Under the pieces are notes generated by a model. The model worked only from the letters and a program-made list of their open reading frames with translations. It was not told where the DNA came from and ran no database searches. From IMG/VR virus record IMGVR_UViG_3300037504_000578, positions 1 to 26,631 of that record: DNA of 26,631 bases; one strand, written 5' to 3'. The translations under genes and the position numbers were made by a program. The stretch comes from a virus. Shown here one piece after another: positions 2,979 through 26,062 of the stretch; the stretch's first letter is position 1, and each line of letters opens with the position of its first letter.

Positions 2979-5900
2979 ATGAAAAAACATTTAATTGATC
3001 CGGAGGGGAAGCCCATCGTTTGCGATATGAGTTTTTCTCAGTTTGCAAAGTATAAAAGAAAAGGTTACCGTCAAATGACGGCGACCGAGAGAATAAACTA
3101 CTTAAATAAACAAGAAAAAGAAAAAGTTAAAGCCTTGAAAGATGTTAGCATGCTGGACGTTTACGCCATTTACCCGGACGCCACCCATGCCGACGGTTAC
3201 GGATCAACCTCTCAAGTCCTTAAAAGAGAACTTCAAAAACATGGCGTTTTTTTAAATGAAACTTTTAACAATCAAAAGGTCGGGTTAGTTTACAATTATC
3301 CTTATGCGGTAGAGAGACTAAAAACCCCTTATAAAGTTATTTTTACCATGTTTGAAAGTAGCAAAATGCCGAATGAATGGGAACGGTATTTTAAAATGGC
3401 AGATCAAATAATCGTACCTTCTAGATTTTGTCATGAAGTTATTAAAAAACAGTTTGGAATTGAAACTAAAATAATTAATCTAGGCTATGATCGGGAAAAT
3501 TTTGGGCTAGAAATAGAGGACGCTTTTGAGCCGGTAGAAAACAAGGGAACTTTTAAATTTATTCATTATGACGCTTTCAAATGGCGAAAGGGTTGGGACA
3601 TAGTTTTAAACGCCTTTGATGAGGAGTTTGGAGAAAAAGAGGACGTTGAATTGATATTTAAAACTACGGTTGAGAAAAAAAAGCGGCTTCCTCTCCATGC
3701 TTATTCTAAAGTTAAAGTTATTGATGAGATTTACACCCCTCGCAACCTTTCAAAGCTCCTCAATAAATGCGATTGTTTTGTTTTCCCTTCCAGAGGGGAG
3801 GGCTTTGGAATCCCACCGCTTGAAGCCATGGCGTGCGGTCTTCCGGTAATCATCCCAAACGCCCACGGTTTAAGCGAAATATATCACTGGGAACTCATGC
3901 CCCAACTCGAAACCAAACCGGTCCGGGCCAAGTACGACAACCCAGACTTTACCGGTCAGGATCTCGGAGTTTTGCATCAAACAACTTTTGAGAGCCTAAG
4001 GAAAGCCATGAGAGACATTTATGAAAACGCTAGAAATGAAAAATCGATCTATTATAGCAAGGTGTCTTTTAGGGACCACGCCTTAAAATTCACACTCCAA
4101 AAAACAGCTAAAAAATTGGCTAAAGAATTAAAAAAAGGAGAAAAAACCACCCGGGAAAATAAAAACAAGATCGTTTTTATAACCGAGGATACCCAACACA
4201 TAACCGGCGGGCGTTATTATTCTTGGTGGTTAGCAACAGCCTTAAAGGAGCTTGGTTATGATGTAGAAATTTATACTAATCGGATGCCGATATTTATTGA
4301 AGAGTTTAAGGAATATGCCAAGCCCACCATAATCTTAAAAGACAATTTAAAAAAAGTTGACGTAAAGGCGAGGGCTTATTTTGGGTCTCCGATCATCGGG
4401 AACTTGACCGCGATTAAACTGGGCGAAAAATATCACCGCCCGGCCTATTGTGAAATATTTGACCCCTTCCCTATGATGGAAAAATTTAAGGGAAAACATA
4501 ATTATCCATGCTGGGACAAGTTATTAATAGAATTAAGGAAGCCACACGTTAACATTATCAGCTTGGCCGAATATTGCAGCAAATATATTTATTGGTGGTT
4601 AAACAAGACAAAAAGACAAGTTTTTGAAGTCGAGCCTTGCATCAATGACCGAGAAGCTAAAAAAGCGTCCAAAAAGTTGGACACAAGTCGACGTAAAAAA
4701 TGGATAACTTTTATTTCAAGATTAGATCATCATAAAAATATTGATCATGTTTTAGAGGCCATGAGATCGCCAGAACTGAAAGACTATAAGCTTAAAATAA
4801 TAACAAGTATTGACTCGGTTGGAATCGATAAGATGATCTTGGATAATGGCTTGCTTGGGCGTGTTGAGGTTCACTACAAGGCAACCGATCAAGAAAAATT
4901 TGAAATAATTAAGCAGTCAACTTGCTGCATTAATGCCAGCACGTTTGAGGGCTATGGAATTTGGCTCGCTGAGAGCTTGGCTTTAAACATCCCTTGTGTT
5001 TGTTATGAATACCCGACCTATAAAGAAATAATAGACTGCCATGAAGTCGAGGAAGCAAAAAAAGAAGGGGTTTATCTTGCTAAATATAATAATAAAAAAG
5101 ACTTAGCCAGAAAGTTAATTGAATGTGTTAAAACCCCCATTGAGACAAAAAACCAAATAAAAGATTTTGGAATCGACAAAATGAAAGAAAAGCTAAAAGA
5201 AATCATGGAGCCGGAGATTAAAATCGGGGTCGTGATCATCGCCCTTAATGAAAGTAAGTTTTTGGATGTAGCTATCCAATCGGTTTTTGATCATAATCAT
5301 ATTGAAAAGATAGCAGTGGTCGAGGGTTGCGATGTGGTTAACAAAGACAACGCCGACCCTTACGGCTTAAGCGTTGATTTTCAATATGAAGAGGTTAACT
5401 ACTTATTAAGTCCTAAAATAATTTATTCTCAATATGGATGGTCGGCCAATAAAGCGGAGTTAAGAAATCACGCCCTAGAAATCTTAAAAGAGAAATGCAA
5501 TTATATCTTAGTTTTGGACGGTGACGAGGCTTGGAACAACGAAAATCTTGACAAACTAGTTAATGAGATCAAGAAAAATCCAGACACCGGAGTCTTTTGG
5601 TTTAAGACCTGGCATTTTTGGAAAAAGAATAATCAAGTTACAGTTGGCGGCCAATGGGACAAGCCTTTATTTAGATTCTTTAAGTTTGAAGACAAAACAT
5701 TACATTTTGAACGCCACGAACTTCCTCCGGTCGATAAGGACGGGATTCAAATAAACGTCAGGGACGGCGAAAAATTTTTTAATGATATTGAGTTTTATCA
5801 CTATGGAGGACTGAAAGGAAATAAAGAGATAAAAGAAAAGCTAGATTATTATAAAAAGAGAGATGATCATTTAAAGGTTGTCGATACCTTTACAAACTGG

Positions 5901-5987
5901 AAGCCGGGAGACCCGACCCAGTGGACCCATGGCGGGGGAACGGTTGAAGAATTTAATAAAGATCATCCATTATTAAACTACCCTTAA
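2979..5987 (+). CDS. Triple-domain glycosyltransferase (GT4-like, GT4-like, GT2-like)
   Basis: A 1002-residue protein with three enzyme domains in series after a ~50-residue N-terminal segment. Domain 1 (about 56-385) is a GT-B retaining glycosyltransferase of the GT4 type, with 'RKGWD' near 203 and the E-x7-E signature 'EGFGIPPLE' at 274-282. Domain 2 (about 395-745) repeats the fold with 'FISRLDHHKNID' near 578 and 'EGYGIWLAE' at 657-665. Domain 3 (about 746-1002) is a GT-A family 2 type, with 'VVIIALNES' at its start and a metal-binding DxD-type 'DGDE' at 847-850. The protein could therefore add up to three sugars in sequence. It probably acts in the cytoplasm on capsid or other virion protein, or on host surface glycan; the acceptor is unknown. 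It follows the post-capsid promoter/terminator and ends directly at the next ATG. No membrane segments are seen. Confidence 0.85.
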   Translation: MKKHLIDPEGKPIVCDMSFSQFAKYKRKGYRQMTATERINYLNKQEKEKVKALKDVSMLDVYAIYPDATHADGYGSTSQVLKRELQKHGVFLNETFNNQKVGLVYNYPYAVERLKTPYKVIFTMFESSKMPNEWERYFKMADQIIVPSRFCHEVIKKQFGIETKIINLGYDRENFGLEIEDAFEPVENKGTFKFIHYDAFKWRKGWDIVLNAFDEEFGEKEDVELIFKTTVEKKKRLPLHAYSKVKVIDEIYTPRNLSKLLNKCDCFVFPSRGEGFGIPPLEAMACGLPVIIPNAHGLSEIYHWELMPQLETKPVRAKYDNPDFTGQDLGVLHQTTFESLRKAMRDIYENARNEKSIYYSKVSFRDHALKFTLQKTAKKLAKELKKGEKTTRENKNKIVFITEDTQHITGGRYYSWWLATALKELGYDVEIYTNRMPIFIEEFKEYAKPTIILKDNLKKVDVKARAYFGSPIIGNLTAIKLGEKYHRPAYCEIFDPFPMMEKFKGKHNYPCWDKLLIELRKPHVNIISLAEYCSKYIYWWLNKTKRQVFEVEPCINDREAKKASKKLDTSRRKKWITFISRLDHHKNIDHVLEAMRSPELKDYKLKIITSIDSVGIDKMILDNGLLGRVEVHYKATDQEKFEIIKQSTCCINASTFEGYGIWLAESLALNIPCVCYEYPTYKEIIDCHEVEEAKKEGVYLAKYNNKKDLARKLIECVKTPIETKNQIKDFGIDKMKEKLKEIMEPEIKIGVVIIALNESKFLDVAIQSVFDHNHIEKIAVVEGCDVVNKDNADPYGLSVDFQYEEVNYLLSPKIIYSQYGWSANKAELRNHALEILKEKCNYILVLDGDEAWNNENLDKLVNEIKKNPDTGVFWFKTWHFWKKNNQVTVGGQWDKPLFRFFKFEDKTLHFERHELPPVDKDGIQINVRDGEKFFNDIEFYHYGGLKGNKEIKEKLDYYKKRDDHLKVVDTFTNWKPGDPTQWTHGGGTVEEFNKDHPLLNYP

Positions 5988-6542
5988 ATGAAAACTGCAA
6001 TTATTATACTTGGCCCAGCGGGGAGCGGTACTAGGCTTTTAGCTAAAATATTGTATAAAAACGGTTTTCATGGAGACATCGGACACGTTCAAAAATTTGA
6101 TCGTTTTAACTCGGACGACCTAAAGAGAAAAGACAAGGTTTTTATTAGGAGGAGCTTGCCCCATGGAGCGACCGGTTGGAAAGACACTAGAAGTTATGAT
6201 TTTAAAAAAATCACTTCCTTTTTCGAGAAAAATGGTTTTTCTTCAATAAAATTGCTAATAATAAACAGAACTCGAAAATATACGATAAAAAGTCAACTCT
6301 CTCATGGTTCTTTAATTAAAAACGAAAATGAGGGAAAGGAGAGCATAAAAAGAGCGGAGGAAAAGATTTTTAAAATAATTTCTAGGACTGGTTTTAGCTT
6401 TAAGCTTTTTAATTATGAACAAATGATTAGAAGGCCTGAGATCACACAAGACCTTATATTAATTTTTGTCGGGGCAAATTCAAGAAATTTTGTTAAAATC
6501 TATAATGGAGATAAAAAATATTTAATAATTAAACAAAAATAA
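5988..6542 (+). CDS. Sulfotransferase-like P-loop protein
   Basis: A 184-residue protein starting with a P-loop-like 'GPAGSGTRLLAK' at residues 9-20, as in the PAPS-binding loop of sulfotransferases. A mid-protein strand 'IKLLIINRT' (about 86-94) with following Ser/Lys would match the 3'-phosphate-binding region, and 'FNYEQMIRRPE' near 140 resembles the 'YEdL...P' element late in sulfotransferases. It is shorter than the usual 250-300 residues, so it is a minimal or diverged member. It begins immediately after the stop of the triple glycosyltransferase, so it is probably co-translated and acts on the same glycan. A nucleotide kinase is the main alternative, but no lid or nucleoside-binding motif is seen. 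Function is inferred. Confidence 0.55.
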   Translation: MKTAIIILGPAGSGTRLLAKILYKNGFHGDIGHVQKFDRFNSDDLKRKDKVFIRRSLPHGATGWKDTRSYDFKKITSFFEKNGFSSIKLLIINRTRKYTIKSQLSHGSLIKNENEGKESIKRAEEKIFKIISRTGFSFKLFNYEQMIRRPEITQDLILIFVGANSRNFVKIYNGDKKYLIIKQK

Positions 6543-6797
6543 ATGAAGTCAGTCATCAATGACAACGAAATCGGCTTTGTGGTTACCTTTTCAAAAGAAA
6601 AAGACGAAAAGGGCGAGCATATTGCTAATTTTGAAATAAAGGGGAAGGGTAGAGAACTTTATAATCTCTACAAAAAATACTTCTCTAAAATGTTAAAAAA
6701 AGACAAAAGGACCGAGGTCGCTTTATGGCTAATTTATAAAGCGATCGAAAACGCGGCCGAAGAAAATAATTTAAAAGAAAAAGATGGAAAAATATAA
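6543..6797 (+). CDS. Small protein in glycan cassette, unknown
   Basis: An 84-residue protein with no recognised domain: an N-terminal beta-rich part (about 8-32) followed by a helical, lysine-rich part (about 34-75). It starts right at the stop of the sulfotransferase-like gene, and its last 14 bases overlap the start of the methyltransferase gene, so it is a bona fide member of the operon. There is no signal peptide or membrane segment. It might be a partner of one of the neighbouring enzymes, but that is only from position. Confidence 0.6.
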   Translation: MKSVINDNEIGFVVTFSKEKDEKGEHIANFEIKGKGRELYNLYKKYFSKMLKKDKRTEVALWLIYKAIENAAEENNLKEKDGKI

Positions 6798-7380
6798 AGA
6801 GTTTCATGGTCAATTTGGCGAGGATAAACTATTAAGAACCAAACCATTTCAGGACTATAATTATAAAGGGGTGTTTGTCGATATTGGAGCGGGTCACCCG
6901 GTTAAATTTTCAAATACTTATCATTTTGAAAAAAACGGATGGACCGGGCTTTGCGTCGACGGCGACCAGAGACAAATTAACGAACTTTTTAAATTTAGGA
7001 AATGTCAGGTTTTTAAAGCCGTGGTCAGCGGCGAAAACTTAAAAAGGGTTAACTTTCTACAAGCCGGCCAGCCCGATCTTTCCCGAAAAGTAGAAAAAAA
7101 AGACGGTCCAATAATTTCTTTTTCGCTAGATTATATATTAAGAAAATTCAAGATCGAAAAAATAGACTTGCTTTCAATCGATGTCGAGGGTGATGAGTTA
7201 GAGATTTTAAAAAGCTTTGATATTAAAAAATACCTCCCAGGCGTGATAATTGTTGAATTTTTAAGCCCCGGGAAAAATCAAGAAAAAGAAATTAAAGATT
7301 TCTTTAATAGTATTAGTTATGATGTTAAATATGACTTAATGGCCGAGACCAACTCAAACTTAATATTTAAAAAAATATAA
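6784..7380 (+). CDS. FkbM-family SAM-dependent methyltransferase
   Basis: A 198-residue class I methyltransferase of the FkbM family, which O-methylates sugars and other small molecules. The SAM-binding motif I is 'VDIGAG' at 32-37, followed by 'GWTGLCVDGD' (about 52-61) where an acidic residue would bind the ribose. The family hallmark 'LLSIDVEGDELEIL' is at 129-142, and 'PGVIIVEF' near 152 closes the sheet. It is somewhat shorter than typical FkbM proteins but has all core motifs. Within a cassette of glycosyltransferases and a deoxysugar-pathway enzyme, the likely substrate is a hydroxyl of the phage-encoded glycan, perhaps a terminal cap. It overlaps the preceding gene and precedes the dehydratase by one base. 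Confidence 0.8.
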   Translation: MEKYKEFHGQFGEDKLLRTKPFQDYNYKGVFVDIGAGHPVKFSNTYHFEKNGWTGLCVDGDQRQINELFKFRKCQVFKAVVSGENLKRVNFLQAGQPDLSRKVEKKDGPIISFSLDYILRKFKIEKIDLLSIDVEGDELEILKSFDIKKYLPGVIIVEFLSPGKNQEKEIKDFFNSISYDVKYDLMAETNSNLIFKKI

Positions 7381-7381
7381 A

Positions 7382-8380
7382 ATGGAAAACAAACAAAAAA
7401 CTGCGGTTATCACCGGTTACGGTGGTCAAGACGCCTATTACTTATCAAAATTATTGATAATGAAGGGTTATAGAGTAATAGCTCTAGCCCGCAAAACCTC
7501 ACAACCAAAAGAGGAGATAGAAGGGGTTGAAATCGTTGAGGGCGACCTTTTGAACAGAAACGTGATTGTTGCTCTAGTCAAACACTTTAAGCCGGATGAG
7601 TTTTATAATCTAGGAGCGCAAAGTCATGTCGGTTATTCATTTAGGGAGCCGATTTATACCGCCGAGGTAACCGGAATGACCGTTTTGCACATCTTAGAAG
7701 CGATTAAGCAATATTCATTTTCGACTAGATTTTATCAGGCCAGCACAAGCGAACTTTTTGGAGAAGCTTTAAAAGAAGAGATGGACGAAACGACAAGATT
7801 TAACCCGGTCAGTCCTTACGCGATAGCTAAACAGTTTGCTCACTACCTCGTTAAAGCTTATCGGTCAGGTTATGGAATGCACTTATCCAGCGGCATATTA
7901 TTTAATCATGAAAGCCCGAAACGAGGGCCGGATTTTGTAACTCAAAAAATAGTGAGAAATATGGTTTTATACAGCAAGGGAAAAATAGAGAATTTCTCAC
8001 TTGGTAACGTTGAATCAAGAAGAGACTGGGGGCATGCTCGTGACTATGTTAGAGCGATGCATTTAATGCTCCAACAAAAAAGACCCGACGATTATGTTAT
8101 CGCAACCGGGGAAACTCACTCGGTCAAAGAGTTTGTTGATAAAGTAGCCGAATGTTTGGGCTTAAAAACATCATGGATAAAAAACGGTAGCTGGACCCTC
8201 TTTGATCAAAACAAAAAAAAGACTATAATAAAAACAGAGGAGGGCGACATCAGACCAAATGACGTTAATTACCTAAAAGGTAACTATGAAAAAGCCCAAA
8301 AAATTCTCGGATGGCAACCTCTTATCACTTTTGACGAACTTGTTAAAGATATGGTATTTGAGGAAGCTAAAAAACATTAA
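7382..8380 (+). CDS. gmd: GDP-mannose 4,6-dehydratase
   Basis: A 332-residue extended short-chain dehydrogenase that converts GDP-mannose to GDP-4-keto-6-deoxymannose, the first step toward GDP-fucose, GDP-rhamnose, colitose or perosamine. The Rossmann Gly-rich loop is 'TGYGGQDAYYL' at 11-21. The active site is intact: Thr122 and Glu124 in 'STSELFG', and Tyr146-x3-Lys150 in 'SPYAIAK', each offset ten residues from the Escherichia coli enzyme. 'GNVESRRDWGHARDYV' (208-223) is diagnostic of the family. No reductase, epimerase or aminotransferase that would finish the sugar lies in the window, so host enzymes or genes outside must act next. It is the last gene of the glycan cassette, 9 bases before the neck genes. 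Confidence 0.92.
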   Translation: MENKQKTAVITGYGGQDAYYLSKLLIMKGYRVIALARKTSQPKEEIEGVEIVEGDLLNRNVIVALVKHFKPDEFYNLGAQSHVGYSFREPIYTAEVTGMTVLHILEAIKQYSFSTRFYQASTSELFGEALKEEMDETTRFNPVSPYAIAKQFAHYLVKAYRSGYGMHLSSGILFNHESPKRGPDFVTQKIVRNMVLYSKGKIENFSLGNVESRRDWGHARDYVRAMHLMLQQKRPDDYVIATGETHSVKEFVDKVAECLGLKTSWIKNGSWTLFDQNKKKTIIKTEEGDIRPNDVNYLKGNYEKAQKILGWQPLITFDELVKDMVFEEAKKH

Positions 8381-16710: not shown

Positions 16711-18159
16711 ATGTCAACAATCCAAACATTAAGAGAAGGGGCAACCGATCATCCAGAGGAGATAGCAAATTTTATACCTAATAGTTGCGTAGTCCCGCCC
16801 GGCGGAGTATTTTCAAGAAATGGCGGAGGGCTTCAGGTCGTCGCCCAGTCTCCCGCGACAATGTTTGTCGAAATATCGGAAGGGAATGGGGTGGCAGCCT
16901 TGTCAACCGAGGAAATGAAGTTCCCGATCAGGGTTTGGGACGGTAATTATGCCGTTCAAGTAACGTCAAATAGTAGCGGAAACCCGAGAAAAGACGTGGT
17001 TGTTATTTATATTGACACAACCGCGACCGCCAATTCTACCGCGACTAATGTCGCCAAGGCGGCGGTTGTAGCTGGAAGCCCCGGAGCCAGCCCAATCGCC
17101 CCCGGAGATGCGGCAATCCAAACCGCGATCGGCGGAAACTATCCTTATATAATACTTGCAGAGGTCGACGTTGCTGACGGGGCAACCTCGATCACCAATA
17201 GCGAAATTACAGACGTTAGAGGAAAGGTTTTAACCGGGCTTGACAGATTAGCCGACGGCTCGGCCGAAAGTAAATATTTAATAACTTACTCAATATCATC
17301 CGACAATTTAATCATAGAAATTAAAGACGAGAACGAGAAAAGTTTTTCCTCTTCAAACGTTGGTTATTTTAGAGTTGGAGGATCAAATTTAATCGTCAAC
17401 GAGCCACTAACCTTGACTTTGGAAGACTCCGACACATACAACCCCTTTCTTTCGTCTGCCGCTCCGGATGGTGATGATTTTGAGCTTTTTATTTACCTTG
17501 TAAATAATAATAGCTCCATAGAATTAGCCGCCAGCCTTAGTCCGGTAGAGAGTTATATATCTACCCCTTACGTCGATGATTCAGGGAAGACAAACGGAAG
17601 CTTAGACATGGCTAGAATTATAATGAGCGGGACATTTAACTCAAACAATTCAATTAAAAATATAGGGAGTTTAAAGGTTAATTTTTCAAACGCTTATGAC
17701 TGGTCTGCTCCTAGCTCCGATAAAATAGTTAATGAGCCGGTTTTTTCTAGTGGGATATATCATTATGATTTAATTGTAAAATCTGTAACACTTGGAACAA
17801 ACGAGCCGGGAACAGTAACAACCGAAGACGGTTATTTTAAGGTCGAGGGTGGGACGGTTCATTTTTCAATAGACATCTCAGGCAACGCGGGGAGTCCACT
17901 TGGGCAAGTATTGCCGGCTTTTTTTATCCCTATCCCAATGGATACCGACATGACTTTAAGAATGCCGGCCCAGGTTTACGACAATGGAACCGCCACACCT
18001 GAGACCAATTCGGGAATGATAGAAAATGACTCAGCCACTGGGGCCGAAAAAACAAAGCTTCAAGTCTCGCCAACATGGGCGTCAAATACTGGATTCACCA
18101 AAAGTGCCGCTTTTGCGATTAAAGCTAGTGGTTCATATCCATTTAAATCACGTAATTAA
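16711..18159 (+). CDS. Fibre/baseplate protein, paralog 1
   Basis: A 482-residue protein whose first ~180 residues are clearly related to the next gene: both start with '(I)QT(L/I)REGAT.HPEE', and share 'VKxSPGASP.AP' and 'NPYI(I/V)LA(E/D)V(D/E)V' and 'TNSEITDVRG'-type segments. The C-terminal ~300 residues are Gly/Ser/Thr-rich beta sequences that differ from the paralog. This split - conserved attachment half, diverged outer half - is usual for receptor-binding or baseplate upper proteins. No catalytic motif is seen. It follows the small coiled-coil protein by 18 bases. Confidence 0.72.
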   Translation: MSTIQTLREGATDHPEEIANFIPNSCVVPPGGVFSRNGGGLQVVAQSPATMFVEISEGNGVAALSTEEMKFPIRVWDGNYAVQVTSNSSGNPRKDVVVIYIDTTATANSTATNVAKAAVVAGSPGASPIAPGDAAIQTAIGGNYPYIILAEVDVADGATSITNSEITDVRGKVLTGLDRLADGSAESKYLITYSISSDNLIIEIKDENEKSFSSSNVGYFRVGGSNLIVNEPLTLTLEDSDTYNPFLSSAAPDGDDFELFIYLVNNNSSIELAASLSPVESYISTPYVDDSGKTNGSLDMARIIMSGTFNSNNSIKNIGSLKVNFSNAYDWSAPSSDKIVNEPVFSSGIYHYDLIVKSVTLGTNEPGTVTTEDGYFKVEGGTVHFSIDISGNAGSPLGQVLPAFFIPIPMDTDMTLRMPAQVYDNGTATPETNSGMIENDSATGAEKTKLQVSPTWASNTGFTKSAAFAIKASGSYPFKSRN

Positions 18160-19614: not shown

Positions 19615-20271
19615 ATGATAACATTGCCTAAAATCTACAACCAGAATGATAAGGCTTGGAAGCGAAAAAAGCTAGGAAGATGTAAAAACTTAACAATCGG
19701 ATCGGACGGTTGTTTGATCTCATGCCTTGCCATGGTTAGCGAGTATTATGGACATGAAATAAATCCCGAGGAAATGAATGAAAAATTAATTAAAAAGGGT
19801 GGCTATGCTAACGGTTGTTTATATATTTGGGGAACCCTCCCAAAAATATATAAAGATATTAGCGAGCGAAGAATTAGGACCAATTATAGATTAAGAGATA
19901 ACAATATAAACGATATAAAAACCGCGCTAAGCAACGGTTACCCGGTTATGCTTTGGATCGATTACAACCCGAAAACAGCGGTAAATAATATGCATTTTGT
20001 TTTAGCGATCGGATTCAACCCCGACAACGAAAACGACATCACGATCGCCGACCCGATCGACGGGACATTGAAAAGCTTAAAGGACTATCTAGGATGGTTT
20101 ATTAAAGACGCGAGGCGAACAATCGAGGCTTATATAATCTATAAAGGAAAACCCTTAGAGGACTTTTATAATGTAAATATCGATAGTTTACAAGAAGCCC
20201 AAAAAGAAATAAAATATTTAAAGGAGGGCTTTAAGCGAATAAGAGATGTTGTTAATGAGTATATCCAATAA
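19615..20271 (+). CDS. C39-like cysteine peptidase, probable endolysin or tail lysin
   Basis: A 218-residue protein with a papain-like C39/C70 peptidase layout: Cys33 in 'SDGCLISCLAM', His127 in 'NNMHFVLAIGF' and Asp146 in 'IADPIDG', the expected Cys-His-Asp triad order. The first two-thirds are the catalytic domain; residues 175-218 form a charged helix ('LQEAQKEIKYLKEGFKRI') that may bind wall or partner. It lies directly before the holin, the common position of an endolysin, so cleavage of peptidoglycan peptide bonds is likely. There is no signal peptide, so export would depend on the holin. A structural tail peptidase is the alternative. It overlaps the holin by about 26 bases. Confidence 0.78.
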   Translation: MITLPKIYNQNDKAWKRKKLGRCKNLTIGSDGCLISCLAMVSEYYGHEINPEEMNEKLIKKGGYANGCLYIWGTLPKIYKDISERRIRTNYRLRDNNINDIKTALSNGYPVMLWIDYNPKTAVNNMHFVLAIGFNPDNENDITIADPIDGTLKSLKDYLGWFIKDARRTIEAYIIYKGKPLEDFYNVNIDSLQEAQKEIKYLKEGFKRIRDVVNEYIQ

Positions 20272-20728
20272 GCTAAGATTAATGCTTGCAAAATTTTTTG
20301 TTTCAATCCCCTGCGGCATATTTTTTTTTAAAGAAGAGTGGTGGAAAATTGCCTATGCTCTCATTTTAATTGTCGCAGTAGATACAATTTTGGGGGTTTG
20401 GGTCTCTGTTAGGGCCAAAACTTTCTCATCTTGGCGCCTTAGCCGTGCCGGCTCTAAGGTTGCCAAGTATTTTTTGGCCCTAGTAACGGCCTATTTTTTA
20501 AGCGTCGCTGAAAATCGGTTTGAGTGGGTTGTCGGGTCCTTAGGCGTGTTTTTTGTCTTAACCGAAGCGATCAGCAATTTTGAAAAATTATCTTTGTTAG
20601 GCTTAACTCTCCCGACCTCTATTTTAGCTAAAATCAATGATCAATTTAAAGACTTATACAATGCCCAAAAAAAGCACAAAAAAGAAAAACAAAAGAAAGT
20701 AACCAAGGAAATATTAAAAAAACCTTGA
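20246..20728 (+). CDS. Holin
   Basis: A 160-residue membrane protein. Hydrophobic segments lie near residues 10-28, 36-55, 70-90 and 93-112, giving two to four membrane passes, and 'VAVDTILGVWVSVRAKTFSSWRLSRAGSK' is characteristic of the phage holin 4 / toxin-secretion holin family. The C-terminal tail is lysine-rich and cytoplasmic. It would permeabilise the membrane to release the upstream peptidase. The start at 20246 overlaps the peptidase by 26 bases; a second ATG at 20255 would shorten it by three residues and cannot be excluded. Its stop overlaps the -35 of the next promoter. Confidence 0.82.
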   Translation: MLLMSISNKLRLMLAKFFVSIPCGIFFFKEEWWKIAYALILIVAVDTILGVWVSVRAKTFSSWRLSRAGSKVAKYFLALVTAYFLSVAENRFEWVVGSLGVFFVLTEAISNFEKLSLLGLTLPTSILAKINDQFKDLYNAQKKHKKEKQKKVTKEILKKP

Positions 20729-24210: not shown

Positions 24211-24999
24211 ATGCAAAAAAAAGAATTTGTCGGGCTATGGATACCGGCACACGTGGTTAACGATACCAGGCTAAGCAATCTTGACATGTTATTATATGCC
24301 GAGATTGCTTGTTATGAAGTTTGTTATAAAAAAAATTCTCAATATGCCCACAGATTTAAAAGGCACGTTAGAACAATACAAAAATCTTTATCAAAATTAA
24401 GAAAATTGGGGTACATTGAAGACATGGCACACAAAGGGCGAAGATTGTCAAGACGGGCCTTGAGAGATAGACCAAAAAGTGACCTTAAAAAGGAGGTTTC
24501 TGAAAAGGGTGGCAAAAACGCCACCCTTTCTAACACGCCCCCATTTAAAAAAACCAGGGGTGGCAAAAACGCCACCCCAGGGGTGGCAAAAACGCCACCC
24601 CCTTATCTATTAGAGAATAATATAGAAAATAAAAAGAAAAAAAAGAAAAAGAAAAAAAAGAAAAATCCCTCACGGGGTGGCAAGCAAAGCTTGCAAAACA
24701 AAGAAGACAATATTGGAAAAAAAATAAATGAAGTAATAAATTTGTTTAATGAAGTAAACCCAAATTATAAAGATTTATTTGAAAACAACACCCAAAGAAG
24801 CGCCATGCAAAAACTTATTGAGAGGTTTGGGTTTAAGCTCATGAAAAGAACGGTTGCAAGTTTACCCGAGTTAATATATAATAAATATTGCCCAACGATA
24901 ACGACACCCTTGCAACTTAAAAACAAGTTAGCGGAATTGATTGCTTTTCAAAAAAAGCAAACCGCTCCAGATAATAAGCATAAAGTCGGAGTAGCATGA
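24211..24999 (+). CDS. Winged-helix replication initiator with internal origin
   Basis: A 262-residue protein of the lambda O / HTH replication-protein type. Residues 10-90 form a winged helix for origin binding ('LSNLDMLLYAEIACYEVC', then 'VRTIQKSLSKLRKLGYIE'). The middle is a low-complexity linker (about 95-160) encoded by three identical dyad repeats and a poly-Lys tract. Residues 170-250 form the C-terminal region shared by these proteins ('EVNPNYKDLFENNTQRSAM', 'KYCPTITTPLQLKNKLAEL'), thought to recruit helicase or loader. No phage helicase is in the window, so a host helicase is likely used. The linker's amino-acid content follows the DNA repeats, including a frame change, so the DNA, not the protein, is conserved there. 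Confidence 0.8.
   Translation: MQKKEFVGLWIPAHVVNDTRLSNLDMLLYAEIACYEVCYKKNSQYAHRFKRHVRTIQKSLSKLRKLGYIEDMAHKGRRLSRRALRDRPKSDLKKEVSEKGGKNATLSNTPPFKKTRGGKNATPGVAKTPPPYLLENNIENKKKKKKKKKKKNPSRGGKQSLQNKEDNIGKKINEVINLFNEVNPNYKDLFENNTQRSAMQKLIERFGFKLMKRTVASLPELIYNKYCPTITTPLQLKNKLAELIAFQKKQTAPDNKHKVGVA
24507..24601 (+). repeat. Three dyad iterons
   Basis: The 18-bp unit GGTGGCAAAAACGCCACC occurs three times, exact: within 24507-24526, 24557-24578 and 24580-24601. Arms GGTGGC/GCCACC (7-8 bp with flanks) surround loop AAAAAC. Spacing of matching bases is 51 then 23 bp, close to whole helical turns. Copies one and two are read as Gly-Gly-Lys-Asn-Ala-Thr, copy three in another frame as Val-Ala-Lys-Thr-Pro-Pro. 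Confidence 0.9.
24507..24694 (+). other. Putative replication origin inside the initiator gene
   Basis: The iterons are followed by a G+C-poor stretch (24602-24666) ending in an almost pure A/G run (24623-24665), a likely unwinding element, then a partial iteron GGGGTGGCAA (24674-24683) and an inverted repeat GCAAGC-AAA-GCTTGC (24680-24694). Iterons plus adjacent A-rich unwinding tract inside the initiator gene is the arrangement of lambda ori in gene O. Function as origin is inference. Confidence 0.7.
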
Positions 25000-25702: not shown

Positions 25703-25914
25703 AGCGAAAGAAAAAACACATAAGATCATTTTTAAAAAACAAGGTGCGATTAATGCACTATAGCGACGCGGGTTTTGTTTTAGAATTTCGTTATATCAAA
25801 CCGGCATTTTATATAACCCTTGAATCTATTGGAAAAATTATTAGAGAAAGCGATAATGAAATTAAATTTTTAAACATCAAAAAAAGTGAAAACATCAAGA
25901 ATCATAAAAATTAA
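25699..25914 (+). CDS. Small early protein, unknown
   Basis: A 71-residue basic protein, Lys/Arg-rich at both ends, with a beta-like centre ('AGFVLEFRYIKPAFYITL'). It is coupled to the short frame before it (ATGA) and overlaps the MerR-like gene after it by 29 bases. No domain recognised. Confidence 0.5.
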   Translation: MKRKKKHIRSFLKNKVRLMHYSDAGFVLEFRYIKPAFYITLESIGKIIRESDNEIKFLNIKKSENIKNHKN

Positions 25915-26062
25915 AGATTTTTCAAAACTGGTCGGCGTTTCAATTAAGACTATTAAGAAATACCAAAAAAAAGGGTATATTGAAGACAAAAGGCTTAAAA
26001 ATAATTACCGATTCTTTACCGAGGATGACGTTAAGAATTTTATTAAGCTTTTAAAAAAATAA
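25886..26062 (+). CDS. MerR-like HTH regulator or excisionase-like protein
   Basis: A 58-residue frame from GTG 25886, shorter than most gene callers accept. It reads 'IKDFSKLVGVSIKTIKKYQK' and 'YRFFTEDDVKNFIKLL', the helix-turn-helix plus wing and closing helix of MerR/excisionase-type DNA-binding domains (residues 8-56). As the only clear small regulator in this window it is a candidate to act at the early or operator-like sites. The start overlaps the preceding gene; GTG is inferred because no ATG lies in frame before the HTH. Confidence 0.68.
   Translation: MKTSRIIKIKDFSKLVGVSIKTIKKYQKKGYIEDKRLKNNYRFFTEDDVKNFIKLLKK

Follow-up and report, generated by a model that had tools for sequence, protein, structure and literature searches.

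A candidate replication origin embedded in the initiator gene of a phage contig

Introduction

Origins of replication that lie within the gene for their own initiator are known from both phages and plasmids. In phage lambda, ori is located in the middle of gene O and contains four imperfect copies of an iteron (ATCCCTCAAAACGAGGGA and variants), each an 18-bp inverted repeat with an A-rich (A3–A4) centre, at spacings of 20, 24 and 23 bp; an A/G tract lies just 3' of the last iteron, and the least stable 50 bp of the gene start there. The lambda iteron has also been described as a 19-bp imperfect inverted repeat (PMC7466680). In SPP1, oriL consists of initiator-binding repeats and an AT-rich unwinding element inside the initiator gene 38 (PMC6316719). 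The origin of plasmid pSK41 lies within the rep coding region, between the winged-helix N-domain and the C-domain of Rep, and pPR9 Rep, a hybrid plasmid initiator that supports autonomous replication, combines a C-domain in common with pSK41 Rep and a pfam13730 N-domain akin to phage replication proteins (PMC5703833, a review).

Here we describe a phage gene with a similar organization. The window analysed is the complete 26,631-base IMG/VR virus record IMGVR_UViG_3300037504_000578 (positions 1–26,631), for which a sequence-only reading had proposed an origin embedded in a winged-helix initiator gene. This is the best-supported reading of the locus by its anatomy, by statistics and by comparison with relatives.

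Results

The initiator gene and its surroundings

The gene of interest (Table 1) encodes a replication initiator, with matches to phrog_270 ('replication initiation protein', E 4.4e-11), phrog_428 (3.8e-8) and phrog_678 ('replication initiation O-like', 2.5e-6). The match to Pfam HTH_36 (2.6e-4, 21.2 bits) is under the gathering cutoff of 25 and places the protein only near that group (PF13730); the Skulduggery initiator, with which it aligns, also falls slightly below the cutoff (24.1 bits). NCBIfam matches are far under their cutoffs and were taken as spurious. The winged helix that had been proposed is borne out, in that the N-terminal 84 residues align at 25–37% identity with 13 phage initiators, from phages of many hosts, and residues 1–95 are modelled as a winged helix (pLDDT 76) that matches MarR-type winged helices and viral HTH proteins, some of them named replication initiator or replisome organizer. 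The C-terminal domain has no match in Pfam or PHROG, and a fold search with its low-confidence model (pLDDT 68) gave no informative match; we propose that it contacts the helicase or its loader. A peptide-seed search of viral and genome contigs found no close relative of the initiator as a whole, nor were relatives found via the capsid gene, and RecT led only to distant phages without a matching initiator. The alignment (A1) was too diverse for a locus search.

Table 1. Features of the initiator gene and of the repeat-bearing linker (window coordinates).
Feature	Coordinates	Strand	Remarks
Replication initiator gene, 262 aa	24211..24999	+	N-terminal winged helix, repeat-bearing linker, helical C-terminal domain
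DNA-binding winged-helix domain (predicted), residues 1–84	24211..24462	+	Alignment, model, fold matches
Dyad (iteron) copy 1	24508..24525		Frame 0; stem extends to 10 bp, 24504–24529
Dyad copy 2	24559..24576		Frame 0; 8-bp stem 24557–24578; 51 bp past copy 1
Dyad copy 3	24582..24599		Frame 2; 8-bp stem 24580–24601; 23 bp past copy 2
A/G-rich tract, proposed DNA unwinding element	about 24608..24668		Least stable 50 bp of gene, 24608–24657
Left half-site GGGGTGGCAA ('partial fourth copy')	24674..24683	+	Far side of A/G tract
Small inverted repeat GCAAGC-aaa-GCTTGC	24680..24694		Sequence
C-terminal domain	24703..24996	+	Predicted all-helical; common to L087

Upstream of the initiator gene are a RecT gene and a Cas4/exonuclease-like gene. 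No helicase or loader was recognised within the 1.6 kb between the initiator gene and the contig end, unlike in relatives, where a DnaB-type helicase or DnaC-type loader gene often comes next after the initiator. End repeats are absent from the record, and we therefore take the contig to be, probably, a fragment of a genome. Cumulative GC skew climbs almost throughout and flattens only near 24.5–25 kb, but because the fragment is just 26.6 kb and nearly all of its genes are on one strand, neither skew nor coverage is informative about the position of an origin.

The window contains several other features. A block of sugar-related genes (2979–8380) between a P22-type coat gene and later structural genes encodes a 1002-aa protein with several glycosyltransferase domains, an FkbM methyltransferase and a GDP-mannose 4,6-dehydratase-like enzyme, and is possibly involved in glycosylation of the virion or the host surface. 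A holin gene is overlapped by a C39-type peptidase gene (19615–20728), and the two are likely a lysis pair with an unusual lysin class. A small MerR-type helix-turn-helix protein with a GTG start and of excisionase-like size (25886–26062; Pfam MerR 1.9e-10) hints at a temperate phage.

Dyads and an unstable tract in the linker

The linker contains three exact copies of the 18-bp dyad GGTGGCAAAAACGCCACC (GGTGGC-AAAAAC-GCCACC), as had been noticed in the sequence-only reading, and the window has no other match even when 3 mismatches are allowed; 0.02 are expected by chance, and none of 100 shuffles reaches three. The stems are perfect, with 10 bp in copy 1 (AAAGGGTGGC/GCCACCCTTT) and 8 bp in each of copies 2 and 3 (GGGGTGGC/GCCACCCC). 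Together, copies 2 and 3 make up an exact tandem duplication of 23 bp; copy 1 has a flank unlike theirs, yet self-complementary. Counting from the gene start, copies 1 and 2 are both read in frame 0 (GGKNAT), whereas copy 3 is read in frame 2 (GVAKTPP), in agreement with the frame difference reported previously.

The A-rich tract said to follow the dyads is present at about 24611–24668. The stretch 24608–24657, next to the repeats, ranks first for instability in the gene and twelfth in the whole contig, as would suit an AT-rich unwinding element, although its AT-richness beyond the protein requirement is borderline (p 0.06–0.08). Beyond the tract, the partial fourth copy that had been claimed is confirmed as a left half-site and extends no further than the left half, and the additional inverted repeat is also found. 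Matches to the left half with no more than 1 mismatch on the + strand occur, besides the three dyads, only at this half-site and at position 16888.

The exact dyad is found in only three other stretches of IMG/VR, two of which are copies of one terminator-like site and one of which is in an unrelated protein gene, and we therefore conclude that the 18-mer itself is not conserved. In an unrelated phage, GGTGGCAAAAACGCCACC is present once beside or downstream of a gene (L004 10763–10780, L006 1288–1305), with AAA/TTT, terminator-like flanks.

Independence of the dyads from the protein sequence

We shuffled synonymous codons within the gene, leaving the protein unchanged, and recounted the bases in stems. 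The linker of the window has 52 stem bases compared with 5.5 expected in the shuffles (p = 0.001). As a control, 7 of 135 46-codon segments from the window's genes reached p <= 0.05, which is about the number due to chance, with the linker being the highest in stem bases; as a positive control, the lambda O ori passes the same test (p = 0.015). The repeated sites in this coding region are thus in excess of both chance and protein constraint. The dyads are not explained by the protein, in line with the proposal that selection is on the DNA.

Comparison with described embedded origins

The locus has the layout of lambda O and ori, as the sequence-only reading had suggested, in that an iteron array lies midway through the initiator gene and an A/G tract, less stable than any other part of the gene, comes after it. 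The A-centred dyad had been presented as a difference from lambda, but the lambda iterons are also inverted repeats with an A-rich centre (PMC7466680), and the feature is instead a resemblance. The window thus has the components of a lambda-type iteron design, namely a 17–19 bp inverted repeat, an A-rich centre, clustering at 20–24 bp and a 3' A/G tract, with the 51-bp spacing as a deviation. Its spacing (51 and 23 bp) is less regular than in lambda although 23–24 bp is common to both, it has three full exact copies and a half-site with one 51-bp gap where lambda has four imperfect copies, and its arms are GGTGGC rather than TCCCTC. The proteins are not so readily connected. A profile comparison of the winged helix with lambda O gave a probability of 0.13% and no direct match, the window's protein gives HTH_36 and no Phage_rep_O (PF04492), the family of lambda O, and the link between the two is weak, consisting only of the shared phrog_678. 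Because homology to lambda O is not demonstrated, our claim is that the initiator may work like lambda O, and not that it belongs to the lambda O family.

SPP1 oriL resembles the window in having repeats and an AT-rich element within the initiator gene, but differs in that its repeats are described as direct and in having a second origin, oriR (PMC6316719). The pSK41 and pPR9 initiators are from plasmids and the window is from a phage, and the C-domain of the window's protein could not be related to theirs; rep was absent from the first 5 kb of pPR9. Judged from sequence, the window very probably contains a further case of the initiator-embedded origins known from lambda ori/O, SPP1 oriL/gene 38 and pSK41 Rep.

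Linkers of related initiators

We compared 50 non-redundant initiators, including that of the window; the counts are indicative, because the set was grown from a small number of seeds and contains members that are not independent of one another. Linkers have 24.4 stem bases compared with 7.2 in synonymous shuffles, and a dyad excess at p <= 0.05 is present in the linker of 23 of the 50 genes, in the winged-helix part of 2 and in the C-terminal part of 6. In about half of the relatives dyads do not reach significance, and some relatives lack them altogether. The 40 bp of lowest stability are located at residues 84–150 in 46/50 genes (27% expected), and in 29/50 the instability is extreme beyond the synonymous null, taking the gene-wide extreme. 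In GC-rich genes third-position GC falls from 0.73 to 0.33 in the tract, a drop that is favoured by the tract having been picked as the minimum.

Dyads centred on A-tracts of 4–6 bases are present in the linkers of 10 of the 50 genes, compared with 0.8 (at most 2) in shuffles, and have phage-specific arms (TCCCGACA-aaaa-TGTCGGGA, TCATGAAG-aaaa-CTTCATGA and TAGACA-aaaa-TGTCTA). The HTH_36-type phage initiators, among them those of Skulduggery, which grows in Pseudomonas fluorescens SBW25, of the Butyrivibrio phage Ceridwen, and of Cormatin, Funu2 and ul36, share with the window a winged helix, a repeat-bearing linker, an AT-rich tract and a variable C-domain, but have other dyad arms and C-domains, and some are without clear dyads. 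Directly after the repeats, the linkers of L012, L018, L020, L023, L027 and others encode NNTSINNTSIN or a closely similar peptide (from DNA such as AATAATACAAGTATTAAT), in initiators from phages whose hosts are Staphylococcus, Fusobacterium, Butyrivibrio and Acinetobacter, and this DNA looks like a conserved element of the melting region.

No close homologue of the window's linker was found. The nearest relative by C-terminal domain, L087 (49–53% identity), has an N-terminal part belonging to other initiator families (phrog_16167 and others), and has neither the linker nor the dyads of the window. Its linker instead contains 11-bp direct repeats (CAACCAGCGGT and variants) that are read in frames 1, 0, 2, 1 and 0, and thus in all three, followed by a purine-rich AT tract. 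With the C-domain kept and both the N-domain and the repeats replaced, the DNA-binding domain and the repeats differ together, in the same kind of swap as relates pSK41 and pPR9. Three repeats with 27-bp spacing (CATGTGGGAAAATAGCGTTGTCC...) are also located at the contig end of L087 (4706–4782).

Discussion

Dyads that are independent of the protein code, the unstable tract adjoining them, the homology to initiators and the same layout in relatives lead us to consider it highly likely that 24504–24694 is a phage theta-type replication origin within the coding region of its own initiator. We infer that the N-terminal winged helix binds the 18-bp dyads, probably as a dimer on each dyad, with a monomer contacting either arm and the A5 centre bending between the two monomers. 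Once occupied, the array would strain and open the adjoining A/G-rich tract, and the C-terminal domain would then recruit either the replicative helicase or the loader of that helicase.

Repression of their own genes is common among initiators, and the dyads could be operator-like sites within the gene that serve mainly in autoregulation or copy control, with the true origin at another site, in the portion of the genome that the contig lacks. The probable incompleteness of the contig leaves room for this, and SPP1 provides an example of a second origin away from gene 38 (PMC6316719). However, the sites are about 300 bp into the gene and beside its least stable DNA, repeats and unstable tract are paired again in relatives, and the contig yielded no second array of clustered GC-rich repeats, and we regard this explanation as unlikely. 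Alternatively, the repeats might act as RNA, forming hairpins in the initiator mRNA that function as an attenuator, a terminator or in translation control. The segment does form a fold of much greater stability than its shuffles do (z = -7.9), terminator-like scores are obtained for two of the dyads, and the same 18-mer has terminator-like flanks where it lies downstream of a gene in the unrelated phage contig noted above (L004/L006). But the + strand stems are followed by more of the gene and not by a proper T-run, poor hairpins would be expected from the AT-rich dyads or direct repeats of many relatives, as in the direct array of L087, and the A-rich tract and the initiator context are left unexplained; a role as RNA is thus very improbable.

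A further explanation is that the repeats have no DNA function and arose as a side effect of a protein linker of low complexity or of recent local duplication. That copies 2 and 3 are a tandem duplication and that the linker is lysine-rich are both consistent with this. Nonetheless, the reading frame of copy 3 differs from that of the other two, the dyads disappear when synonymous codons are shuffled, the differing flank of copy 1 stays complementary, and A-tract-centred dyads recur in other phages with different arms, so that we give this by-product explanation the least credence of all. Autoregulation, RNA hairpins and neutral duplication are each less likely than an embedded origin.

For the HTH_36-like phage initiators as a class, we lean towards the interpretation that the origin resides in the linker, as A-tract dyads or other repeats with phage-specific arms together with a melting tract written into the codons, and that origin and DNA-binding domain are exchanged as a single cassette from one C-domain to another, unrelated one. 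A search of open-licence papers found none describing such a family-wide pattern, which is a more interesting result than the single case and merits a dedicated survey. If a single gene is indeed both initiator and target, this would account for the freedom of the linker to vary at the protein level and for the presence of copies in different frames, and replication specificity could move between phages in one piece. Each winged helix and the dyad arms beside it would form a natural pair from which the DNA recognition of these domains could be worked out, and if the family-wide pattern holds, the origins of many uncultured phages would be predictable from the initiator gene sequence alone.
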